Shown: positions 11,059-21,940 of the stretch, piece by piece
How the letters are laid out: every line of letters starts with the position of its first letter
Numbering within the stretch: position 1 is the first letter of the stretch
Assembly: GCF_002043005.1 (NCBI RefSeq)
Contig: NZ_CP020330.1
Coordinates: forward strand, 3,366,001-3,430,000
Origin: Martelella mediterranea DSM 17316
Lineage (GTDB): Bacteria > Pseudomonadota > Alphaproteobacteria > Rhizobiales > Rhizobiaceae
Length of the DNA stretch: 64,000 nucleotides
Direction: 5' to 3'
Notes under the pieces: model-generated
Seen by the model: only the letters and a program-made list of their open reading frames with translations
Database searches by the model: none
What the model was told of the DNA's origin: nothing
Program-made: the position numbers and the translations under genes

Positions 11059-11808
11059 TCAGAATTCGGCGCGCGTTTCCGCACCTCGCGCGCCGAGCTT
11101 GGGCAGGAACTGCAATACCGCGCCGATGACATAGAGATAGATGCCGCTGGCGACGAACAGCGCCTCGATCAGTTTCGGCGCGTCAAAGGACGCAAGCAGC
11201 GCATAGAACCCGGTCGCGCACCAGATGCCGAAGACGGTCAGATTGAGCGGCCTCAGACGCTTGACGCGGACGGGATGCAGGAACTGCACGGGCGCGAAGG
11301 TGAGCCCCACCGACAAAAGCACGATCGCCATCGCCACGAGCGAGGACGGCTGAATGACGAAAAACGAGAACACCACCATGTTCCAGACCACCGGGAAGCC
11401 CGAGAAGAAGTTCTCGCCGGTCTTCATGCCGCTATCGGCGTAATAGATCGCGCTGGAAACCACGATCAGCGCGGCGGCAACGAAGGACAGCGGCTCCCCG
11501 ATCATATGCGACTGATAGAGCGCAAAGGCCGGAAGTAGGACATAGGTGACATAGTCGATGATGTTGTCGAGCATGACGCCGGACCAGCTCGGCAGCACTT
11601 CGGAAACCCTCAGCCGCCGGGCGATCGGTCCGTCAATGCCGTCGACGAGCAGCGCCAGCCCCAGCCACCAGAACATCGAGACGAATCGCCCCTCGGCGGC
11701 GGCCACGACGCCGAGAAACGCCAGGAACGAGCCTGAGGCCGTCAGTATGTGAACGGAAAACGCCCGGATTTCCGCGTATGGCACTTTTCGCTGACTGAAC
11801 AATCCCAT
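11059..11808 (-). CDS. pcs: phosphatidylcholine synthase
   Basis: 249 aa inner-membrane enzyme that condenses choline with CDP-diacylglycerol to phosphatidylcholine, a pathway characteristic of rhizobia, Brucella and relatives. The CDP-alcohol phosphotransferase motif is present: D56-x2-D59-G60-x2-A63-R64, then G77-x3-D81-x3-D85. The spacer between R64 and G77 is longer than in ordinary family members, as in known Pcs proteins. The flanks are about eight hydrophobic segments. The N-terminus KVPYAEIRAFSVHILTASG is typical of Pcs. It is divergent from the UbiH-like gene across a 193-nt intergenic region. No regulator is adjacent. Confidence 0.93.
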   Translation of the reverse strand: MGLFSQRKVPYAEIRAFSVHILTASGSFLAFLGVVAAAEGRFVSMFWWLGLALLVDGIDGPIARRLRVSEVLPSWSGVMLDNIIDYVTYVLLPAFALYQSHMIGEPLSFVAAALIVVSSAIYYADSGMKTGENFFSGFPVVWNMVVFSFFVIQPSSLVAMAIVLLSVGLTFAPVQFLHPVRVKRLRPLNLTVFGIWCATGFYALLASFDAPKLIEALFVASGIYLYVIGAVLQFLPKLGARGAETRAEF

Positions 11809-12001: not shown

Positions 12002-13186
12002 ATGGCGGTGCATGAAATTGCAGTGATCGGCGGCGGACCCGCCGGTATGATTACGGCCCTGGCGCTGGCGCGTGCGGGACGCGACGTCGCGCTGGTGGCG
12101 CCCGCCCAAAGCAGCGGCGACCACCGCACCACCGCGCTCATGGACCACTCCATCGCCTTCATCAACCGGCTGGGCCTGTGGAAGGATATCAAGCCCGGGG
12201 CGGCCCCGCTCAAGACCATGCGGATCATCGATGGCACCGGCCGCCTGCTGCGCGCGCCGACCGTCAGCTTCCGCTCCGCCGAGATCGATCTGGAGGCCTT
12301 CGGCTACAATATTCCGAACAGCGTTCTGGTGGCAAAGCTTTCGCAAGCCGTCGAGAACGAGGCCAACATCACCCACTTTCAGGAAGCGGCAAGCGATATC
12401 GACATCGGCAAGGACGCGGTCGCGATCACGCTCGCCTCGGGCGAAAGCCTCAATGCAGCGCTGGTCGTCGGCGCAGATGGCCGCAAGTCCAAGGTGCGCG
12501 AGAGCGCGGATATCGGCACCCGCCAATGGAGCTACAAACAGTCCGCCGTCGTCCTGAATTTCGAGCACGGCCTGCCGCACGGCGATATCTCGACTGAGTT
12601 CCACACCCGCGGCGGCCCCTTCACCCAGGTGCCGCTGCCGGAGGCCAACCGTTCGAGCCTCGTCTGGGTCATGGCATCGGCAGATGCGGAGGCTATGGTT
12701 GAACGACCGCCGGAGGAAATCGCCGCGGCGATCGAGGAGCGCATGCAATTCCTGCTGGGCGCGGTGAAAATCGACGGCTCGGTGCAGAAGTGGCCGCTCT
12801 CCTCGCTGGTCGCCAACCGTTTCGGCAAGGGCCGGATGACGCTTGTCGGCGAGGCAGCCCACGCCTTTCCACCAATCGGCGCGCAGGGGCTGAACCTCAG
12901 CCTGCGCGACATCATGCGGCTTTCCCGCATGCTGGACGGCATTGACGGCTCGACCATCTCGTCACGCACCGGCGAGCGTTATGACTTCCTGCGCAAATCC
13001 GATGTCTGGAGCCGGACGGCAAGCGTGGACCTTCTGAACCGCTCGCTGCTGGCGGATTTCCTGCCGGCGCAGCTCGCGCGCTCTGCCGGGCTCTACGTGC
13101 TCTCCGCCGTGCCGCCGCTGCGCCAGTTCGCCATGCGCGAGGGCGTGCAGCCGATGCGCGGCATCAAGGCGCTGTTTGCAAGCTGA
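12002..13186 (+). CDS. UbiH/UbiF-family FAD-dependent hydroxylase
   Basis: 394 aa flavoprotein monooxygenase. Motifs in order are the FAD dinucleotide fold GGGPAG (residues 10-15), the GADGRKSKVR motif (about 158-167), and the second FAD motif GEAAHAFPPIGAQG (about 283-296). Relatives hydroxylate the ring of ubiquinone precursors. The short length and HRTTALMDHS segment place it with the alphaproteobacterial UbiH/UbiL group, but the ring position attacked cannot be read. It lies just ahead of the RibD-like gene (17 nt gap), so the two may be co-transcribed. A role in the neighbouring pteridine-like cluster is therefore possible but less likely than a quinone role. Confidence 0.85.
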   Translation: MAVHEIAVIGGGPAGMITALALARAGRDVALVAPAQSSGDHRTTALMDHSIAFINRLGLWKDIKPGAAPLKTMRIIDGTGRLLRAPTVSFRSAEIDLEAFGYNIPNSVLVAKLSQAVENEANITHFQEAASDIDIGKDAVAITLASGESLNAALVVGADGRKSKVRESADIGTRQWSYKQSAVVLNFEHGLPHGDISTEFHTRGGPFTQVPLPEANRSSLVWVMASADAEAMVERPPEEIAAAIEERMQFLLGAVKIDGSVQKWPLSSLVANRFGKGRMTLVGEAAHAFPPIGAQGLNLSLRDIMRLSRMLDGIDGSTISSRTGERYDFLRKSDVWSRTASVDLLNRSLLADFLPAQLARSAGLYVLSAVPPLRQFAMREGVQPMRGIKALFAS

Positions 13187-13203
13187 CAAGCACCCAGGAC
13201 GCC

Positions 13204-13977
13204 GTGACAGTAAACCCGATCAATATGAGCGACGAAACCTGGCGGCGGCTCCTTGCAGTGCGCGAAGGCAGCGCGCCGCCGCCGGGGCCCGAAGGCACGC
13301 TCTACGGGCCCATCGCCGCCGCCTCGGGGCGATTCGTTCTGGCGCAGGTCGGCCAGTCGCTGGACGGGCGGGTGGCGACGCCTTCGGGAGACGCGCGCGA
13401 TATTTCGGGACCGGAGGGTCTCGCGCATCTGCATCGATGTCGCGCCCTGGTTGATGCCGTGATTGTCGGGGAGAACACCGTCAGTTGCGACGATCCGCGC
13501 CTTTCCGTGCGCCTCGTCGACGGGCCGGACCCGGCGCGCGTGGTCATTGATTGCCATGCGCGGCTAAGCGGATCTGAGGGCCTTTTCCATGACGGCGGCG
13601 CGCGGGTGATCGTTTTCCAGAGCGCCGAGGCCCGCCGCAACGATCTTCGGAATGCCGAAATCATCCCGCTTCGCCCAGAGAAAAACGGGCTTTCGCCGCA
13701 GGAGATGCTGAAGGCGCTTTCCGGACTTGGCCTGCATCGCGTGCTGGTCGAGGGCGGGGCGCGCACGATTGCCCGCTTCATCGAGGCCGGGTTGGTGGAC
13801 CGGCTTCATGTCGCCGTTTCGCCGCTGATCATCGGATCGGGCCCGAGCGGAATTTCCCTCTCCCCGGTCGAGCGCCTTTCGAGCGCGCTCCGGCCAGAGG
13901 CACAGATCTACAGTCTGGGGAGCGACATCCTGTTCGATTGCCCGCTCAAGCCACTTGTCAGACCGGCAGGGCAATGA
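13204..13977 (+). CDS. RibD C-terminal-type (DHFR-like) reductase, stand-alone
   Basis: 257 aa, GTG start with AGGA 7 nt upstream. Residues about 43-250 form a RibD_C/dihydrofolate-reductase-like domain: GQSLDGRVAT, then the segment VIVGENTVSCDDPRLSVR, then VLVEGGARTIARFIE. In riboflavin synthesis this domain reduces the ribosyl chain of a pyrimidine intermediate using NADPH. The usual N-terminal zinc deaminase domain of RibD is absent, replaced by about 40 unrelated residues. The gene is therefore not an ordinary ribD and may act with the GTP cyclohydrolase II-like protein at 17.4 kb. Its 3' end overlaps the convergent methyltransferase gene by 20 nt. Confidence 0.85.
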   Translation: MTVNPINMSDETWRRLLAVREGSAPPPGPEGTLYGPIAAASGRFVLAQVGQSLDGRVATPSGDARDISGPEGLAHLHRCRALVDAVIVGENTVSCDDPRLSVRLVDGPDPARVVIDCHARLSGSEGLFHDGGARVIVFQSAEARRNDLRNAEIIPLRPEKNGLSPQEMLKALSGLGLHRVLVEGGARTIARFIEAGLVDRLHVAVSPLIIGSGPSGISLSPVERLSSALRPEAQIYSLGSDILFDCPLKPLVRPAGQ

Positions 13978-14752
13978 GATCGGTGTGACCGATCTCGCAG
14001 CGGCTTTCCGGCGCGGCTATGGCGGCCATGCGGAAGGCGAGCCAGTCCTCGATCTCGGCCTCGCCATGCATCGACATTTCCAGCAAGGGCCGACGAAATC
14101 CTGACAGAAAGGCCTTCTGCAGCGCCGCGTCCTTTCCGTCCAGCAACCATGGGCTCTTCATCACATCGACCTGGTATCCTCCGTCTTCCAGCAAAAGATG
14201 CAGACAGGGGCTTGCCCCGGGCCCGAGCGCCGTGCCGAAGCCCTTGTCGGTCTTCTGGTGGCGGTTGAAGGCCTCGACCATATCGTCATCGAGCGGATGA
14301 CGATGCGTCCAGCGTATGATGCCGTCATAGTTCAGCGCCGCATAAAGACCGCAGCCTTGAGCTACGATTCGATCACTGAAAGCTACACAGAAGTCTTCCG
14401 AAACCAGATCGAACAGGGCCGAGGCCGTCACCACCGAAACGCCTTCCAGCGGCAATTGCTCAAGGTGGTTGAGGTCGAACTGACTGAAGGCGACCGCCGC
14501 CTCGCCACCGATAGTGTTCTCCGCCTGCTCGAGCAGAAGCGGGTCATGGTCAAGCAGCAGCCAGCTTGTGCCTTCCGGCACATGGCCTTTCAGACAGCGC
14601 CATGTCGAGCCCGTGCCGCAGCCGATATCGACAATCGCCGGCGCTGGCATGGCCTGCAGATAGCGCGACAGCTTGTCGATCAGAGCCTGGGCGCGGGCGG
14701 CTTTGTCCGCCGGTTCGCGCAGCGTCAGCCATTCGGTTTCAAAGCCGCTCAT
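13958..14752 (-). CDS. class I SAM-dependent methyltransferase
   Basis: 264 aa. Motif I VDIGCGTGS at about residues 41-49 binds S-adenosylmethionine, and the acidic LLLDHD after the second strand is motif II. The rest resembles the Methyltransf_25/11 group, with no diagnostic acceptor site. It is the last gene of a tight leftward unit (dehydrogenase, PTPS-like, glycosyltransferase, methyltransferase), overlapping the glycosyltransferase by 4 nt. Its job is probably to methylate the product of that unit. Acceptor unknown. Confidence 0.85.
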   Translation of the reverse strand: MSGFETEWLTLREPADKAARAQALIDKLSRYLQAMPAPAIVDIGCGTGSTWRCLKGHVPEGTSWLLLDHDPLLLEQAENTIGGEAAVAFSQFDLNHLEQLPLEGVSVVTASALFDLVSEDFCVAFSDRIVAQGCGLYAALNYDGIIRWTHRHPLDDDMVEAFNRHQKTDKGFGTALGPGASPCLHLLLEDGGYQVDVMKSPWLLDGKDAALQKAFLSGFRRPLLEMSMHGEAEIEDWLAFRMAAIAAPESRCEIGHTDLIALPV

Positions 14753-15792
14753 GCGATCGCCTCCAGAGACTCGGAAATGGTGCGCGCCGTATCATCCCAT
14801 CCCGGCAATCTCTCGCCCGCGCGCCGGGCCGCTGCCGCCATTTCGGCGTGAAACGCCTTGTCTGTGATCATCTTTTCAAGGGCTTCGGCAAAACCCGCGC
14901 TGTCATCGACGGGCACCAGAATGCCGGCGTCCGGCGGCACCACGTCGGGAATGGCGCCGGCGCGGCAGGCAATCACGGGCACGCCCTGCGACAGCGCCTC
15001 GGCGAACACCATGCCATATCCCTCGTAGCGGCTGGCAAGCGCGAATATATCGGCGCTGGCAAGCAGCGCGCGGGTGTCGTCGCAGTCGCCGGCCAGCAGA
15101 ATTCTGTCGTGGAGCCCAAGCGCGGCGATCTGCCGTTCGAGCGCCCGCGCGGTCGGCGCGTCCATATCCCGGCTGCCGGCAATGGTCGCTCTCCAGGGAA
15201 GGTCTTCGATCAGCTTCAGGGCGTCGACCAGCACATCATGCGCCTTGCGCGGGATCAGCGAGCCGACGGAGACAATATGCGGCGGATCGCCATCGCAGGC
15301 TGATACCGGCGCGGGGTCCGTGCCGGGAAGCGCGACGGTGATGTCGTCCGGCGGTATCGCGAACCGGCTTTCAACCTCCCGCCCGGTCTCGGGCGATGTC
15401 ACGACGATATGGCGGGCAAGGGAAAGCGCCTTGTGCTCGCTCTCTTGCAGAACCGCCTGCAGGTCGGCGTCGAGCCCGGTTTCAAGCGCCAGCGGATGGT
15501 GGACCAGAGCGACAATTCTCAAACGGGCGGACTCGCGGGCCGCCCAGCCGTCCAGAATGCCGAAGGCGAGCCCGTCTATCATCACCAGCGCCCCGTCCGG
15601 CAGAGCCGAGAGCAGACGTTCGGCGTTCTGCTTCACCGCCGAAGCGGGATGCGGAAAGCCATCGCCAAGCGCCAGCAATTCCACGTCCCAGCCAAGCGTC
15701 TCCAGACCCGCAATCATCCGTCGGTCATAACCATAGCCGCCGGTTCTGGTTGAGAGATCGCCGGGATAGGCAAAGACAAGCTTGGCCGTCAA
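14749..15792 (-). CDS. GT4-family glycosyltransferase
   Basis: 347 aa with the two-Rossmann GT-B fold. The N-terminus YPGDLSTRTGGYGYDRRM is the acceptor-side glycine-rich loop. The C-terminal donor site has SVGSLIPRKAHD (about 192-203) and the E-x7-E motif EGYGMVFAE (about 260-268), typical of retaining GT4 enzymes. The acceptor and sugar cannot be deduced. It overlaps both neighbours by 4 nt and so is translationally coupled with the PTPS-like and methyltransferase genes. GT4 enzymes that glucosylate tetrahydropterins are known in cyanobacteria. That precedent and the PTPS-like neighbour make a pterin acceptor a reasonable guess. Confidence 0.88.
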   Translation of the reverse strand: MTAKLVFAYPGDLSTRTGGYGYDRRMIAGLETLGWDVELLALGDGFPHPASAVKQNAERLLSALPDGALVMIDGLAFGILDGWAARESARLRIVALVHHPLALETGLDADLQAVLQESEHKALSLARHIVVTSPETGREVESRFAIPPDDITVALPGTDPAPVSACDGDPPHIVSVGSLIPRKAHDVLVDALKLIEDLPWRATIAGSRDMDAPTARALERQIAALGLHDRILLAGDCDDTRALLASADIFALASRYEGYGMVFAEALSQGVPVIACRAGAIPDVVPPDAGILVPVDDSAGFAEALEKMITDKAFHAEMAAAARRAGERLPGWDDTARTISESLEAIA

Positions 15793-16187
15793 AGCGCGCC
15801 CTCATACCAGCCGCGGGCGGCATGGGATTCATGGAGCGTCACCCGGATTTTCGCAATGCGGTGGCTGCCCGGCCCGAGCTTTTTCTCGCCGACGGCCGCA
15901 GCGAGCCGGTCGAAGATATGTTTCGCGATCACCTCGGTGGTCGAAATCTTGCCGTTGAAGGCTTCGACTTCGTCCAGATTCTGATAGTTGAGCGGCTTCA
16001 GCACTTCGGCAAGCGTTTCGGTCGCCGCACCGATATCGACGGCAAGGCCGTCATCATCGACATCCTCGGTGAAGAAGGCGGCATCGACCACGAATGTGGC
16101 ACCGTGCATGCCCTGGGCAGGACCGAATACGGGTCGGGGGAGGCTGTGGGCGATCATGATGTGATCGCGAACTTCGACTGCAAACAT
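15789..16187 (-). CDS. PTPS/QueD-like (6-carboxytetrahydropterin synthase family) protein
   Basis: 132 aa from the ATG at 16187 (GAGAGAAG ribosome site). A longer frame exists but is less likely. The family converts dihydroneopterin triphosphate to tetrahydropterins with a zinc bound by three histidines. Here H14 (IAHSL) and H28 (MHGA) align with two ligands, but the expected HGH motif reads HGA, so the third ligand is replaced by alanine 30. The later family motifs ISTTEVIAKHI and LHESH are kept. The usual catalytic cysteine region before HGH lacks a cysteine (FGPAQGMHG). The protein is thus probably an altered enzyme with another substrate. It lies 13 nt after the dehydrogenase gene and 4 nt into the glycosyltransferase. 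Confidence 0.82.
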   Translation of the reverse strand: MFAVEVRDHIMIAHSLPRPVFGPAQGMHGATFVVDAAFFTEDVDDDGLAVDIGAATETLAEVLKPLNYQNLDEVEAFNGKISTTEVIAKHIFDRLAAAVGEKKLGPGSHRIAKIRVTLHESHAARGWYEGAL

Positions 16188-16200
16188 GGCTTCTCTCTTT

Positions 16201-17199
16201 TTAGTATCGGATACGGTGGCAGAGCGTTTCCGGATCATCGATGATGTCGGGATAGGCCGCCGCGATGTCCTCAAACGCGGTCTCGCCGGAGATCAGCGCA
16301 TCGAGGCGGTCGTCTTCAAGCAGGGCAATCGCCTTGGCCAGACGACGGGCAAAGGTCCAGCGGGCGCGTCGAGCGGGCGGCAGCGCGCCGACCTGCGAAC
16401 CGACGATCGACAGCCGCTGCGAATGGAAGGCCCCGCCGAGCGGCAGCGTCAATTTTCTGTCGCCGTACCAGCTCGCCTCGACAATCCGGGCCTCGAAGCC
16501 CGCGTGATCCAGCGCCTCCGCGAGCGCTTCGCCGGAGGCCGAGGCGTTGATCAGCACATCGAATTCGCCGTCAAGCGCACCGCTCTCGGCAAAGGTCACG
16601 CCGAGCCTCTCGGCAAGCGTCGGCCGCGCCGGATTGCGGTCGACCAGCACGACGTCCGTGCCGATGATCGCGGTGGCGAGGAAGGCACTCAGCGCGCCGA
16701 CAACGCCCGCGCCGAACACCGCCACCCGGTCGCCGGGCATGATTCCGGCATCCCAGACAATGTTGAGCGCCGTCTCCATATTGGCTGCCAGGATGGCGCG
16801 TTCGGGCGGCAGCGATCCTGGTAGCGGCGTGACCATGGCTTCGGCCACGATGGCCGCGCTTTGATGCGGGTGCAGGCAAAAGACGTTGCGGCCGGCCAGA
16901 TGTTCCGGCCCGGTCTCCACGCGACCCACCAGCGCATAGCCATATTTCACCGGAAACGGGAAAACGCCCGCCATGTGCGGTCCGCGCATGCGATCGCGCT
17001 CGCTTTCAGGAACCAGACCGTTGAAAACCAGTGATTCCGTGCCCCGGCTGATGCCGCTGAAAAGCGTCCTGAGCATTACCGAACCCTCGTTGACCGCGCC
17101 GAGTTGTTCCACTTGCAACGCGCAGGTCCGCGACGCCGGAAACCAGAGCGCCCGCGCCGTGTGGCCCGCGCGGTCATCATCGCCAAAACTTCCCTTCAA
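16201..17199 (-). CDS. zinc-type alcohol dehydrogenase-like (MDR) protein
   Basis: 332 aa medium-chain dehydrogenase/reductase. The catalytic-domain segment LFSGISRGTE replaces the usual cysteine zinc ligand by serine, as in the BchC-like subgroup. The nucleotide-binding fold shows GDRVAVFGAGVVG at about 155-167 with LVDRNP after it, suggesting NAD(H). The start is a TTG at 17199 with AAGGAG 9 nt upstream; no in-frame ATG lies nearby. It is the first gene of the four-gene leftward unit, and the divergent promoter region with palindromes (17200-17420) precedes it. The substrate is unknown. An oxidation or reduction step on the side chain made by the PTPS-like protein would fit. Confidence 0.82.
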   Translation of the reverse strand: MKGSFGDDDRAGHTARALWFPASRTCALQVEQLGAVNEGSVMLRTLFSGISRGTESLVFNGLVPESERDRMRGPHMAGVFPFPVKYGYALVGRVETGPEHLAGRNVFCLHPHQSAAIVAEAMVTPLPGSLPPERAILAANMETALNIVWDAGIMPGDRVAVFGAGVVGALSAFLATAIIGTDVVLVDRNPARPTLAERLGVTFAESGALDGEFDVLINASASGEALAEALDHAGFEARIVEASWYGDRKLTLPLGGAFHSQRLSIVGSQVGALPPARRARWTFARRLAKAIALLEDDRLDALISGETAFEDIAAAYPDIIDDPETLCHRIRY

Positions 17200-17239
17200 T
17201 TTTCGACGCTCCTTCCGGCGAACACTTTTTTGTTAAAGT

Positions 17240-17260
17240 CCAGTCGCAGCGTGCGACTGG
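17240..17260. promoter_or_regulatory. palindrome in the divergent promoter between dehydrogenase and ribA-like gene
   Basis: Perfect 9-bp arms (CCAGTCGCA at 17240-17248 and its complement at 17252-17260) around GCG; one more pair can be added outside. A second inverted repeat, GGAACC at 17259-17264 and GGTTCC at 17293-17298, follows. The position between two divergent units suggests a regulator-binding site. No FMN-riboswitch-like sequence was seen in this region. Confidence 0.5.
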
Positions 17261-17420
17261 AACCAATCCACTTACGCGCTAATTACGTATTAGGTTCCAA
17301 TGACTTCGACGCTCTGCCCGTTTGTGAACCGGGACGAGTCGATGGTTTTGTGACAAAACGATGATGCCGCCAGGCGGCGGAATCATACGCGTGCAACATA
17401 GCAGATCAACGCAGGAACAG

Positions 17421-18518
17421 ATGGATAGGTTCAGTTTTCGAGTTTGCACCCCGGCAATGGAGATCGAACGGGCCGTCGCCGAACTGCGCTTCGGGCGCCC
17501 GGTCATTCTGGAGAGTGGCAAGGAAAAGCATGCCGTGCTGGCGCTCGATTGCGCCGCGCCGGAGACCTATGATGCCTTCGCGGCCGCAAGTGAGGATCGT
17601 CACGCGCTGTTCGTCACGGCGCAGCGGGCCCATTGCCTGGGCATTTCATCGAGCCTCGGCATCGCCGTGCCCGCCGAAGGGATGTCGTTCGATGCCGCGG
17701 CGAGGCTTTCCTATGCCCTGGATGCCAAAGCCCCGGGAGAATGGCGTGAGGCCGATCCGGCCATGTCGGCCGCCGCGGAGCTGGCGCGCATGGCGCTGCT
17801 GCTGCCGGCCATGGTATGCACGGAAATCAAGGGTATCGAGGATCGTTTCGAAGCCTGCCACAGGCTCGACTGCGCCCACCTTTCCGATACCAGGCACGCC
17901 CGCCAGGACTTCACCGAGGTCGTGCGCACGCGGGTTCCGCTCAAAGACCTCGGCGATGCGCAGTTTGCGGTGTTTCGCGGCGGGCTTGCGCAGAAGGATC
18001 AGATCGCAATCATCGTCGGAGATCCGGATTTCAGCCGTCCGGTGTCCGTGCGCATTCACTCCTCATGCCTCACCGGCGACCTGTGCGGCTCGCTGAAGTG
18101 CGATTGCGGCGACCAGTTGCGCAACGGCCTCGCCAATCTGAGGGCGGCAGGCGGCGGCGTGCTGATCTATCTCGATCAGGAAGGTCGCGGCACCGGCATC
18201 GGCTCCAAGATGCGGGCCTATGGCTATCAGCACCAGGGCCTCGACACGATCGATGCCGACGCCGAGCTCGGTCTCGAGCCCGACCATCGCCGCTACGAGG
18301 CGGCGATCGCGATCCTGCGGCTGCTGGGCATCTCAAGCGTCGTTCTGCACACCAACAACCCGACCAAGATCGCGGCGATCAATGCCGCGGGCATAAAGGT
18401 GGTGGGGCGGATGCCGACTCATGGCAAGATCACCGCGGAGAACCTGAATTACCTGCGCACAAAGGCGTCGAAGGCCGATCACATATTCGACCCCGAAATG
18501 CTCGCGGCAACGAAATAA
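17421..18518 (+). CDS. GTP cyclohydrolase II with degenerate RibB-like N-terminal domain
   Basis: 365 aa from the ATG at 17421 (AGGA 6 nt upstream); an upstream in-frame ATG at 17361 has no good ribosome site. The C-terminal half is a clear GTP cyclohydrolase II: zinc cysteines C216, C227 and C229 with the spacing of RibA, then DQEGRGTGIG (about 252-261) and LGLEPDHRRY (about 284-293). It should open the GTP imidazole ring to a diaminopyrimidine. Residues 1-180 resemble RibB in outline (IERAVAELRFGRPVIL), but the acidic DDEDRENEGD active site is missing, so dihydroxybutanone phosphate synthase activity is unlikely. The gene is probably a specialised paralogue. It is followed 13 nt later by a phosphotransferase gene. 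Confidence 0.88.
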   Translation: MDRFSFRVCTPAMEIERAVAELRFGRPVILESGKEKHAVLALDCAAPETYDAFAAASEDRHALFVTAQRAHCLGISSSLGIAVPAEGMSFDAAARLSYALDAKAPGEWREADPAMSAAAELARMALLLPAMVCTEIKGIEDRFEACHRLDCAHLSDTRHARQDFTEVVRTRVPLKDLGDAQFAVFRGGLAQKDQIAIIVGDPDFSRPVSVRIHSSCLTGDLCGSLKCDCGDQLRNGLANLRAAGGGVLIYLDQEGRGTGIGSKMRAYGYQHQGLDTIDADAELGLEPDHRRYEAAIAILRLLGISSVVLHTNNPTKIAAINAAGIKVVGRMPTHGKITAENLNYLRTKASKADHIFDPEMLAATK

Positions 18519-18531
18519 CCCCGAGAGCCGC

Positions 18532-19275
18532 ATGACCGACAAGCCGAGCCCCGCACCGCCGCCGCACCTCAAAGCCAGCGCGTTTCTGGTGCTGGGCGTC
18601 GTGTTCGTCGCCGCGCTGGTTTTCTATCAGATGCTGGGCCCGCACCTGATGCTCGGACGCTGGGCGGTGATGTTCGCGGCGTTGCTGCTGTTTGCGATCT
18701 TCACCGTCGTTCTCAGCGCCCTGCCCTATCACCCGCACAGGTCTTTCGGCGCGGCCAACGCGATCACCGCGATCCGGACGGCGATCGTCAGCCTGGTGAC
18801 GGCCTTCGTGTTTTTCGCCGCAGACATGGACGAGCATTCGGCGGTCTGGATCCTGATCGCGCTCGTGGTGGCGGCCTTCGTCCTCGATGGCTTCGATGGC
18901 TATCTCGCCCGACGCTTCGGCCAGGAATCCGCCCTTGGCGCCCGTTTCGACATGGAGGTCGATGCGCTGCTCATACTGGTCCTGTCGGAGGCGGCGCTGC
19001 TGCTGGGCAAGGCCGGTTGGTGGGTGCTTTTGATCGGGCTGATGCGCTATCTCTTCGTCGGCGCGCAATATTTCATGCCGGCGCTGGGTGAGCCCCTGCC
19101 CCCGTCATTTCGCCGGAAGCTGATCTGCGTGGTTCAGGTGGCAACGCTGTGTGTCATCCTCGTGCCGACGATCGTCCCGCCGGTCTCGACGGCGGCGGCG
19201 CTCATCGCGCTGGCTCTGCTGGCCTATTCATTCGCGGCCGACATCCTCTATCTGCTGCGCAAGAGCCGGTCATGA
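18532..19275 (+). CDS. CDP-alcohol phosphotransferase family membrane protein
   Basis: 247 aa with about six hydrophobic segments. The catalytic motif is complete: D119-x2-D122-G123-x2-A126-R127-x8-G136-x3-D140-x3-D144. Members join an alcohol to a CDP-activated lipid or small molecule at the membrane. The long hydrophobic N-terminus (residues 15-62) sets it apart from PgsA and Pcs. The alcohol and CDP donor are not known. Its close spacing after the GTP cyclohydrolase II-like gene suggests one transcript and a shared pathway, which would put the pathway product on a lipid or polyol phosphate. Confidence 0.88.
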   Translation: MTDKPSPAPPPHLKASAFLVLGVVFVAALVFYQMLGPHLMLGRWAVMFAALLLFAIFTVVLSALPYHPHRSFGAANAITAIRTAIVSLVTAFVFFAADMDEHSAVWILIALVVAAFVLDGFDGYLARRFGQESALGARFDMEVDALLILVLSEAALLLGKAGWWVLLIGLMRYLFVGAQYFMPALGEPLPPSFRRKLICVVQVATLCVILVPTIVPPVSTAAALIALALLAYSFAADILYLLRKSRS

Positions 19276-19286
19276 GGTCGCCCGTC

Positions 19287-20213
19287 TCAGGATTTGGCGA
19301 TCCTGCCCCGGTAGAGCGAAACGGCAAACGATATGCCGCCGGGCACGGCAGCGCCCGCCAGCGATATCACCCCATAAAGCAGGCTTGCGGCCACGCCCTC
19401 GGCGCTGGTGAAGCCGAAGAGCGGCCAGAGTGCGGCGGCGGCGGCCTCGCGCGTGCCCCAGCCGCCGATGCCGGCGGGAATAAGCATGGTCATCAGACAA
19501 AGCGGAATGGCTGTGACGGCCGCGATCGCCGGCAAGGGCGCGCCGACCGCGCGCGACGCGATCAGGAATACCGCGATATAGCCGCAGACGATCAACACGC
19601 TGAGGCCGCCCTGCACCACAAACGCCCGGTCTTTCCAGAACACGGCGGCAATATCCGCCCCCACGGCGCGGAAGCGCTGCGGCAGCCATTCCGCCCAGAA
19701 CACGGCGGCAATCACAATGCCGACGATGACAACCGCGCTGACGCCCCATATCAGCGCATCGGCCTGATCCGGCAGGCGTTCGCTCAGGAACAGGGGCCAG
19801 GCCAGAAGACCGATGCAACTCAGGGCGAAAAAGGCGATCTGGCCGGACAGTCTTTCCAGAAACACCGCCGCCGCCGGCCGCTTCCAGCCGCCAACGCCCT
19901 CCATCCGGCTGCGATAGGCCCGCACGGCATCGCCCGCCATGCCGCCCGGCAGGACCAGATTAAGCGCGCTGCTGATGTAGTATTCGCGAATGGCAAGGCC
20001 GAGACCGATCTCCTGTCCGAGCCTTTTGGCCGTGAACCGCCAGCGGTAGGCCGACGCTATGATCTGCACCTGCACCAATGCGAGCGACAGAATAACGAGG
20101 GCGGGCGGCACATCGCGCAAGGCCGCCACCAGACGTTCCGGGCCGGTCAGAGCGATGAGCCCGGCAAGCAGCGCCAGACAGGCGATAACCGAAACGGCGG
20201 CAAGTTTGTTCAA
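19287..20213 (-). CDS. UPF0104 / lysylphosphatidylglycerol-synthase-TM-like membrane protein
   Basis: About 308 aa from a TTG at 20213 with AAGGA 8 nt upstream; the frame is open further upstream but would run into the divergent gene. It has about eight hydrophobic segments. Typical family pieces are YRWRFTAKRLG, ALNLVLPGGMAGDAVRAYR and PAGIGGWGTREAAAAAL. The family includes the flippase-like half of MprF and AglD-type proteins. The catalytic lysyl-transfer domain is absent, so a lipid-translocating or scaffold role is more likely than aminoacylation. It is convergent with the phosphotransferase gene (11-nt gap) and divergent from the sulfatase gene. Confidence 0.85.
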   Translation of the reverse strand: MNKLAAVSVIACLALLAGLIALTGPERLVAALRDVPPALVILSLALVQVQIIASAYRWRFTAKRLGQEIGLGLAIREYYISSALNLVLPGGMAGDAVRAYRSRMEGVGGWKRPAAAVFLERLSGQIAFFALSCIGLLAWPLFLSERLPDQADALIWGVSAVVIVGIVIAAVFWAEWLPQRFRAVGADIAAVFWKDRAFVVQGGLSVLIVCGYIAVFLIASRAVGAPLPAIAAVTAIPLCLMTMLIPAGIGGWGTREAAAAALWPLFGFTSAEGVAASLLYGVISLAGAAVPGGISFAVSLYRGRIAKS

Positions 20214-20293
20214 GCTCTGGTCCTTCGCAACATGCGGGCAGAAATTGCGCGCGCCGCATCTCAATGTAACGTATGGTGCGCGGTGATGGTTTG

Positions 20294-21940
20294 ATGACAA
20301 CAAGCGACAGGCCTGACAAGGGGCGAACCGTCTCATCCCGCGCGGGCTGGATCGCGTTCGTATTTTTCGTCATCCTCAGCTTTGCCGCGCTGATCCTGCC
20401 GGATCACCCGGGCGCGTTCTACGGCGCCGCTTTCCTGCGGTTTCAGCTGGAAGTTCCCATCATGGTGCTGGCGCTGCTGGTGCTGCCGCGACGGATCGCG
20501 ACCGTGCTGGCCGTCCTGTTTGCGTTGGCCATCTTCACGCTGCTGTTCCTGAAGATCGCCGATATCGGCGTGCAATCTGCCTTCCAGCGGCGGTTCAACC
20601 CCTATCTCGACATGAAGATGCTGGCCGATGGCTGGAATGTTTTTTCCGGAACGCTGGGCGCTTGGAAGGCAGGCGTCGCGATCGGGGCGGTCCTTACGGG
20701 CTTTATCGGCCTTCTCGCGCTTTACTTCGGGGCGGAACGGCGGCTGATAAGACTGAGCAAGGCGCAAAAGCGCGGACCGGTGATCGTTGCGCTCACCCTG
20801 CTAGCCATCGGGACCGCGCTCCAGTTCGTCGAGACCCCTGTGCGGGCGGAGATGAAGGCCGTCGCCTATCTCGGCAACCGGCTGGCGCTGGTGCAGAAAT
20901 CGGTCGCGGATATGCAGCGGTTCGAGCGCGATCTGGCCGCCGCTGACGAGATCGGTTCCAGAAACGATCTGTTTGGCGCGATCAGGGGCCGCGACGTCAT
21001 TCTCGTCTTCATCGAATCCTACGGGCGCAGCGCCGTGGAAGATCCGCTCTACAGTCCGGTGACGGTGCCGAGGCTCGACAATGTCGAAGCCGAACTCACC
21101 GAAGCGGGCTTCTCCTCTGCGTCCGACTGGCTGGTCTCGCCCACCATGGGCGGCTTGAGCTGGCTTGCCCATGGCACGTTTCTCTCCGGCCTGTGGACCG
21201 ACAGCCAGGCCCGCTACGACCGGCTGATGATCAGCGACCGGCAAAGCCTGAACAACCTGTTCCGCCAGGCCGGATGGCGCACGGCTGCGGTCATGCCGGC
21301 AATCACCATGGACTGGCCGGAAGCCGCCTATTACGGCTATGACGAGGTTTTCGCGTCGGGCGATCTCGGCTATCTCGGCAAGCCCTTCAACTGGATCACC
21401 ATGCCGGATCAATACACGCTATCGGCGTTTGATCGCTTGGTGCGCCAGCCCGCCCGTGCCGAGGGCAAACCGCTGATGGCGGAAATCGCGCTGATCTCAA
21501 GCCATGCGCCATGGACGCCGGTGCCGAGCCTGATCGACTGGAACGATGTCGGCGACGGCACGGTGTTCGACAGTCAGGCGGAAAGCGGAAAATCACCGCA
21601 GGAAGTGTGGTCGAACCGAGACGATATCCGCGATCACTATATCCGAACCATCGACTATTCGCTGCAGACGGTCGGCGATTACATCGCCCGCTTCGGCGAC
21701 GACGCCGTCTTCATCGTTCTCGGCGACCATCAGCCGGCGCCGGTCGTCACGGGACCCGAGGCATCGCGGGCGGTTCCGGTGCATGTCATCAGCCGGGATG
21801 CCCCCCTCATCGAACACTTCGAGGCGGATGGCTTCACCCCCGGCATGATCCCGGCCCCGGACGCGCCGGAAACGGGGATGGACACGATGCGGGCGAAGCT
21901 CATCGATATCTTTGGCGGACATTCCGGACCGGCGATGTAG
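20294..21940 (+). CDS. membrane-anchored sulfatase / phosphoglycerol-transferase-like protein
   Basis: 548 aa from the ATG at 20294 (another ATG at 20273 would add 7 residues). About five N-terminal membrane segments (residues 12-190) are followed by a periplasmic alkaline-phosphatase-superfamily domain. FIESYGRSAV at about 230 holds the likely nucleophile and metal site, and LGDHQPAP at about 475 the conserved metal-binding Asp-His. The layout resembles LtaS, OpgB and EptA enzymes that move phospho-alcohol groups between lipids and glycans outside the membrane. No Cys/Ser-x-Pro-x-Arg arylsulfatase motif was seen, so transferase or phosphodiesterase chemistry is more likely than true sulfatase. 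It lies at the edge of the pteridine/lipid cluster. Confidence 0.82.
   Translation: MTTSDRPDKGRTVSSRAGWIAFVFFVILSFAALILPDHPGAFYGAAFLRFQLEVPIMVLALLVLPRRIATVLAVLFALAIFTLLFLKIADIGVQSAFQRRFNPYLDMKMLADGWNVFSGTLGAWKAGVAIGAVLTGFIGLLALYFGAERRLIRLSKAQKRGPVIVALTLLAIGTALQFVETPVRAEMKAVAYLGNRLALVQKSVADMQRFERDLAAADEIGSRNDLFGAIRGRDVILVFIESYGRSAVEDPLYSPVTVPRLDNVEAELTEAGFSSASDWLVSPTMGGLSWLAHGTFLSGLWTDSQARYDRLMISDRQSLNNLFRQAGWRTAAVMPAITMDWPEAAYYGYDEVFASGDLGYLGKPFNWITMPDQYTLSAFDRLVRQPARAEGKPLMAEIALISSHAPWTPVPSLIDWNDVGDGTVFDSQAESGKSPQEVWSNRDDIRDHYIRTIDYSLQTVGDYIARFGDDAVFIVLGDHQPAPVVTGPEASRAVPVHVISRDAPLIEHFEADGFTPGMIPAPDAPETGMDTMRAKLIDIFGGHSGPAM

Follow-up and report, generated by a model that had tools for sequence, protein, structure and literature searches.

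A conserved gene neighbourhood around a PTPS-IV protein of Martelella mediterranea, a candidate pathway to a modified pterin or diaminopyrimidine glycoside

Background

In the pseudoiodinine and toxoflavin clusters, GTP cyclohydrolase II (GCHII), RibD and methyltransferases have been proposed to divert a riboflavin precursor to a secondary metabolite, according to the accessible part of PMC9911603. In this work we focused on a cluster of nine genes of Martelella mediterranea DSM 17316, which likewise combines GCHII, a RibD-type reductase and a methyltransferase, and for which this logic is the nearest described. The whole stretch of DNA analysed, referred to here as the window, comprises 64,000 nucleotides (NZ_CP020330.1, positions 3,366,001-3,430,000 of the forward strand), and the cluster occupies window positions 13204..21940. 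Among the seven psd genes listed for pseudoiodinine in the same part of that paper are those for WD-40 and sulfatase-modifying-factor proteins and for a RibD interpreted as a deaminase; unlike the window cluster, this list holds no PTPS protein, GT4 glycosyltransferase, dehydrogenase or envelope gene.

The PTPS protein of the cluster leads to a second body of work. A subfamily of COG0720 with the signature FGPAQ was described in 2017 as PTPS-IV, cluster-node 62 of AGeNNT, with PF00925 and PF01872 as neighbours (PMC5445326, relevant section), and the window cluster shows the same signature and the same two neighbours. In that section PF00925 is termed GTP cyclohydrolase I / FolE2, no product is named and, unlike in the window cluster, the dehydrogenase, GT4, methyltransferase and envelope genes are not mentioned. 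The original prediction of an undescribed pathway has to be narrowed accordingly: the neighbourhood of PTPS-IV with GCHII and RibD_C had been in print, and the structure of a relative, SCO6650 (3d7j), exists, but a product of such a cluster is not described in the literature searched, which took in few subscription papers.

Opening of GTP in two steps is known from the archaeal ArfA/ArfB and from the rhizobial BrbF, a creatininase-family enzyme of Sinorhizobium meliloti that converts the formyl intermediate AFRPP to 2,5-diamino-6-ribosylamino-pyrimidinone 5'-phosphate (DARoPP), as given in an excerpt of PMC9478397. It resembles a form of the cluster found in Streptomyces, in which a GCHII with Met in place of a Tyr adjoins a creatininase-family gene. 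BrbF serves riboflavin according to the same excerpt; the window form differs in that the GCHII Tyr is kept and no creatininase gene lies nearby.

Here we report that the core of the window cluster recurs around PTPS-IV in many bacteria. We class it as GCHII-initiated secondary metabolism, in a variant that differs from the described ones, and hold with moderate confidence that it is a dedicated cluster which would convert GTP through DARoPP into a reduced, glycosylated and methylated pteridine or pyrimidine, possibly linked to the envelope. The best reading of the product is still a modified pterin or diaminopyrimidine glycoside. As many as several hundred sequenced species have PTPS-IV (at least 580 loci), and among the 80 top-scoring loci the 63 with the best flanks show a near-constant core. 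The cluster points to a use of GCHII chemistry beyond flavins and toxoflavin-type antibiotics and suggests a role of PTPS-IV that can be put to the test; should the envelope genes be part of it, pterin chemistry would be connected with membrane lipids.

Results and discussion

Gene content and layout of the cluster

All nine open reading frames (ORFs) of the families originally named are present, with coordinates exact or nearly so, and profile matches in a Pfam scan of ten ORFs (window 12002 to 21940) agree with them:

13204..13977, + strand: RibD C-terminal-type reductase without a deaminase domain (RibD_C, PF01872, 131.5 bits)
13958..14752, - strand: class I S-adenosylmethionine-dependent methyltransferase (Methyltransf_25, PF13649, 28.9 bits, cut-off 27)
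14749..15792, - strand: GT4 glycosyltransferase (PF13692/PF00534), with a 4-nt overlap on each side
15789..16187, - strand: PTPS-IV T-fold protein with the FGPAQ signature (PTPS, PF01242, 74.5 bits)
16201..17199, - strand: BchC-like medium-chain dehydrogenase (TIGR01202 bchC, 56.7 bits, under its cut-off)
17361..18518, probable start 17421, + strand: GCHII with a degenerate N-terminal RibB-like domain (GTP_cyclohydro2, PF00925, 168.8 bits)
18532..19275, + strand: CDP-alcohol phosphotransferase (CDP-OH_P_transf, PF01066, 72.7 bits)
19287..20336, - strand: UPF0104 / LPG-synthase-TM flippase-like membrane protein (LPG_synthase_TM, PF03706, 142 bits; TIGR00374, 46 bits, cut-off 43.2)
20273..21940, probable start 20294, + strand: membrane sulfatase-fold protein, distant kin of lipoteichoic acid primase (Sulfatase, PF00884, 31.8 bits)

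The leftward unit runs dehydrogenase, PTPS, GT4, methyltransferase, and the RibD-type and methyltransferase genes are convergent and overlap by 20 nt. The RibD reductase, GCHII, CDP-alcohol phosphotransferase and sulfatase-fold genes point rightward, and the flippase-like gene lies leftward between the last two. The 4-nt overlaps expected in the leftward unit were found between PTPS and GT4 (15789-15792) and between GT4 and methyltransferase (14749-14752), but the dehydrogenase and PTPS genes are 13 nt apart. Similarly, the divergent region between the two units is real, but where a divergent promoter had been proposed the promoter scan gave a single weak site, which points leftward (17409-17382, 9/12 matches; shuffled-sequence mean 0.1). 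Judging by the starts of homologs, translation probably begins at 16187 for PTPS (132 aa), 17421 for GCHII and 20294 for the sulfatase-like protein; the true start of the flippase-like gene probably lies downstream of 20336.

Conservation of the neighbourhood

Relatives were taken as the best 80 of at least 580 PTPS-IV loci in a one-genome-per-species collection, a choice that leans towards the window's relatives. The 63 loci flanked by 6.5 kb or more on each side were kept as full loci, and the 17 shorter ones were dropped. Neighbours were scored by the best blastp match at E 1e-8 within 9 kb of PTPS-IV; a first neighbour clustering, swamped by antisense ORFs, was set aside.

The genes were not scattered in these bacteria, so that one of the two cases which the original prediction had named against itself falls. 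The dehydrogenase and the methyltransferase were each found near PTPS-IV in 62/63 full loci, GT4 in 54 and RibD in 48, followed by the CDP-alcohol phosphotransferase (33), GCHII (31), the sulfatase-like (29) and the flippase-like gene (25). Further neighbours were an FkbM methyltransferase (30/63), cytochrome b561 (29/63), an MdoH-like glycosyltransferase (18/63) and an inositol-monophosphatase-like protein (15/63). Direct adjacency on the same strand, counted over all 80 loci, was most frequent for dehydrogenase-PTPS (66), before PTPS-GT4 (51), GT4-methyltransferase (49) and PTPS-methyltransferase (26). Because the same grouping recurs in dozens of relatives, we consider the clustering to be beyond chance.

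Groups of core genes are found in Gammaproteobacteria and Actinomycetota as well. PTPS-IV matches were present in 20 plasmid records; eleven of these were inspected, and in nine of them (Peteryoungia, Methylosinus, Palleronia, a Rhodobacteraceae strain, Thiodictyon, Microbacterium, Arthrobacter, Streptomyces fungicidicus and S. globisporus) the dehydrogenase lies beside PTPS-IV along with more core genes. Dehydrogenase, PTPS, GT4 and methyltransferase are grouped on the Streptomyces, Microbacterium and Thiodictyon plasmids; the plasmid of Methylosinus trichosporium OB3b carries these four and RibD, and the Arthrobacter locus has the first three only.

At the genome level, PTPS-IV goes together with an additional GCHII. 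Of the 150 genomes examined from the window's order, 39 gave a strong PTPS-IV match (one partial, the other 38 at 184 bits or above), and nine with weak matches only were counted among the 111 negatives. Two or more GCHII genes were present in 30/39 PTPS-IV genomes vs 33/111 others (Fisher p 4e-7, uncorrected for relatedness), and GCHII lies within 10 kb of PTPS-IV in at least 17/39 (by eye).

The cluster GCHII and its Streptomyces variant

The host genome (5.69 Mb, 4 contigs) has two GCHII genes. The one outside the cluster (C1:4421462-4421947) is part of a RibBA whose RibB part retains the RENEGD and HTE motifs, and a bifunctional RibD, with its start beyond the edge of the locus inspected, adjoins this housekeeping RibBA. 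Because GCHII is thus borne by RibBA elsewhere in the genome, the cluster gene is not the sole copy, and the other case that the original prediction had named against itself falls as well. The cluster is probably duplicated away from riboflavin synthesis, and its GCHII is not the housekeeping one.

GCHII depends on zinc-binding cysteines and on a Tyr, Y105 in E. coli. The 31 aligned sequences, that of the window among them, all have C236, C247, C249 and Y287, the last being the equivalent of Y105. By hhalign, the N-terminal portion aligns with the RibB part of the host RibBA (probability 91.8, E 7.5e-7). A Foldseek search with the whole model (mean predicted confidence, pLDDT, 89.4) had among its hits RibBA 4i14 at E 4.6e-17 and RibB structures at E about 4e-6 (TM 0.5-0.57 by target length), these matches being to the entire model. 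None of the 31 cluster GCHIIs carries the acidic-loop or the HTE motif of RibB (DHBPS). Since the RibB-like fold and profile are kept and the RibB motifs are gone, the protein looks like a RibBA derivative that retained only the GTP-opening half.

Among 40 cluster GCHII ORFs, the Tyr was assigned by pattern in 34 and by eye in three (L050, L062, L082), Met takes its place in two (L009, L102) and one (L087) is unassignable. The two with Met are those of the Streptomyces clusters, where the creatininase-family gene adjoins GCHII. No creatininase was found near PTPS-IV at the 80 genome loci or in the window cluster, and GCHII and creatininase are both missing from the Microbacterium and Arthrobacter loci. 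Five more creatininase loci on actinobacterial plasmids (L103-L107) have no annotated cluster around them. S. coelicolor SCO6655 reportedly makes a formylated intermediate. By analogy with the two-step systems described above, both forms of the cluster would deliver DARoPP.

The PTPS-IV protein

The window PTPS bears FGPAQ, and FG[P/S]AQ..HGA is present in 92/92 PTPS-IV sequences, window included (91 FGPAQ..HGA, one FGSAQ..HGA). In QueD (PTPS-I), catalysis relies on a Cys and an Asp-His pair, His residues hold zinc and a Glu anchors the pterin. The window protein shares with QueD the Pfam PTPS family and, in the alignment, the anchoring Glu, but it is only 25% identical to E. coli QueD, and the catalytic Cys, the Asp-His pair and one zinc His (the second of HGH) are all replaced, so that neither the CxxxHGH motif nor the catalytic Asp-His is found in it. 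Plasmid records annotate the PTPS-IV gene as 6-carboxytetrahydropterin synthase, a queuosine enzyme.

The nearest PDB entry and closest solved structure is 3d7j (E 6.7e-38), deposited as an uncharacterized protein, SCO6650 of Streptomyces coelicolor. SCO6650 reportedly has neither zinc nor PTPS activity. Among the matches listed in the genome-collection scan, the top one is 98% identical to the window PTPS (Martelella mediterranea IOP_24 record). A protein search gave at least 7999 candidates and served only to view near relatives; another protein named M. mediterranea, 84% identical, was among the matches listed there.

On two Streptomyces plasmids (L011, L108) PTPS-IV stands alone, with cupin, metallo-beta-lactamase-fold hydrolase, MEKHLA-domain, sigma-70 and BTAD-regulator genes nearby in both, which suggests a second context for the family.

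The other core enzymes and the envelope proteins

The best PDB matches of the RibD-type reductase are 6p8c, deposited as 2,5-diamino-6-ribosylamino-4(3H)-pyrimidinone 5'-phosphate reductase (DARoPP reductase), and 2azn (219 aa), deposited as a putative 5-amino-6-(5-phosphoribosylamino)uracil reductase; both rank above every bifunctional RibD listed. The window protein shows RibD_C only in the Pfam scan, and the zinc motif of the N-terminal deaminase is present in 0/66 cluster RibD ORFs. Medium-chain dehydrogenases have a characteristic zinc-ligand motif. The cluster dehydrogenase matches zinc-dehydrogenase and BchC-like profiles weakly, in both cases under the curated cut-offs, and the canonical zinc-ligand positions are not conserved in 23 aligned sequences, window included. 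The methyltransferase model is of high confidence (AlphaFold, pLDDT 96.5), and its fold search led only to generic small-molecule methyltransferases; in cyanobacteria GT4 enzymes glucosylate pterins, and the sequence of the window glycosyltransferase places it in GT4 only.

Among the envelope proteins, the CDP-alcohol phosphotransferase has the motif of its family, which reads DGFDGYLARRFGQESALGARFDMEVD. Enzymes of the lipoteichoic acid synthase group have a metal-binding Glu and Asp-His and a Thr or Ser nucleophile; in the sulfatase-fold protein E248, S296, D485 and H486 are invariant in 16 aligned sequences, window included, and its match to 4uop is weak.

Possible pathway and alternative explanations

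In the pathway that we favour, the cluster GCHII would open GTP to DARoPP, and the RibD-type reductase would reduce DARoPP, or a later pterin, without deamination, leaving the 2-amino group in place. The BchC-like dehydrogenase would act jointly with PTPS-IV, on the side chain or in ring closure, to give a pteridine or a modified diaminopyrimidine, to which GT4 would attach a sugar and the methyltransferase a methyl; in some Rhodobacterales the inositol-monophosphatase-like protein might strip phosphate. We infer all of these reactions and their order. In the window's lineage, the product may in addition be linked to lipid and moved outward by the CDP-alcohol phosphotransferase, the flippase-like protein and the sulfatase-fold protein; this step is plausible, but it is the weakest part of the route and less likely than not. 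Less likely again would be a lipid-anchored, glycosylated and methylated pteridine, flipped to the outward-facing side of the membrane and common to Proteobacteria and Actinomycetota; we know of no such class of envelope molecule with a pterin headgroup.

Several observations speak against this pathway. A reductive RibD step and an Amadori-type ring closure on one intermediate conflict, which calls for another order or for a different substrate in one of them. PTPS-IV is patchily distributed: among the other genomes of the same family, four of which were listed, three gave no PTPS-IV match and one a weak match, and 9/39 PTPS-IV genomes have a single GCHII. Near PTPS-IV, GCHII was not found in 32/63 full loci and RibD not in 15/63; no GCHII was found nearby in the Microbacterium, Thiodictyon and Methylosinus plasmid loci, and no RibD in S. 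fungicidicus (L009). The plasmids L011 and L108 have PTPS-IV without the cluster, and the link between the Tyr and creatininase is drawn from two loci. GT4 and the methyltransferase are broad families, scored by blastp only, and their single counts may include unrelated members. Because several plasmid loci have no GCHII nearby, our confidence was slightly lowered, to the moderate level given above.

The rival that survives best is that the pteridine-type and envelope genes represent two separate neighbouring functions, a soluble pteridine glycoside and an independent phospholipid or glycan modification. It is compatible with the core of the favoured pathway but not with the lipid step, and we rate it as a serious possibility, somewhat short of probable. 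For each of the window's three envelope genes, no more than 25 to 33 of the 63 full loci have a copy near PTPS-IV, against 62 for dehydrogenase and methyltransferase, and the 18 loci with the MdoH-like glycosyltransferase beside the core also favour separation. Against it, the CDP-alcohol phosphotransferase gene recurs in the cluster in Alpha- and Gammaproteobacteria, on two Streptomyces plasmids and on one Microbacterium plasmid, all three actinobacterial plasmids having the flippase-like gene as well (with weak scores in Streptomyces), and sulfatase-like genes were found in 29/33 loci with the CDP-alcohol gene vs 0/30 without it. The frequent absence of GCHII and RibD would also fit a pathway that starts from a dihydroneopterin-type pterin made by housekeeping folate enzymes, with GCHII and RibD as optional suppliers of riboflavin or redox power. 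The fold of RibD_C is like that of dihydrofolate reductase, so it could reduce a pterin, and PTPS-IV retains the anchoring Glu; the enrichment of an extra GCHII in PTPS-IV genomes, the loss of the RibB motifs from the cluster GCHII and the coupling of GCHII to creatininase in Streptomyces run counter to this start, which we consider unlikely.

Two further explanations were not supported. GCHII and RibD_C belong to riboflavin enzyme families, and a simple duplication might raise flavin supply, e.g. for secretion; this is very improbable given that the RibB motifs are absent from 31/31 cluster GCHIIs and the deaminase motif from 66/66 RibD ORFs, that none of the ten ORFs scanned gave a RibB, RibE or RibH family match, and that RibBA and a bifunctional RibD are present elsewhere in the genome. 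A branch towards an F420-type deazaflavin cofactor is the most improbable of all. It draws on the placing of PTPS-IV in archaeal F420 synthesis, on unpublished work cited in the part of PMC5041015 concerned, but CofH was above its cut-off in 4/39 PTPS-IV genomes vs 10/111 others, showing no association with PTPS-IV in the 150 genomes of the order, and the host genome has no CofH match.

Other genes around the cluster

A phosphatidylcholine synthase gene (NF045884, 416.6 bits) lies at window 11059-11808, 1.4 kb off the cluster, with nothing that ties it to the latter. In, for example, L069-L074, L084 and L094, where CDP-alcohol and sulfatase genes were not found, the gene of the MdoH-like membrane glycosyltransferase is a divergent neighbour of the dehydrogenase gene. 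Raw counts (16 loci with MdoH only, 31 with CDP/sulfatase only, 2 with both and 14 with neither; p=4.5e-5) would suggest mutually exclusive modules, but a paired test on the dehydrogenase tree was not significant (4 independent pairs, starred branches). In this tree L009, L044 and L078 sit on artefactual long branches, probably through poor trimming, and L049 and L068 are less than half filled. A contig titled Aquiluna, an actinobacterium (L056), is placed in a starred clade of 15 dehydrogenase rows that are otherwise from Rhodobacterales, and it may be mis-binned. In two Rhodobacterales loci (L015, L092) the core has as neighbours a PfkB/ribokinase-type gene and a homolog of methylthioribose-1-phosphate isomerase.

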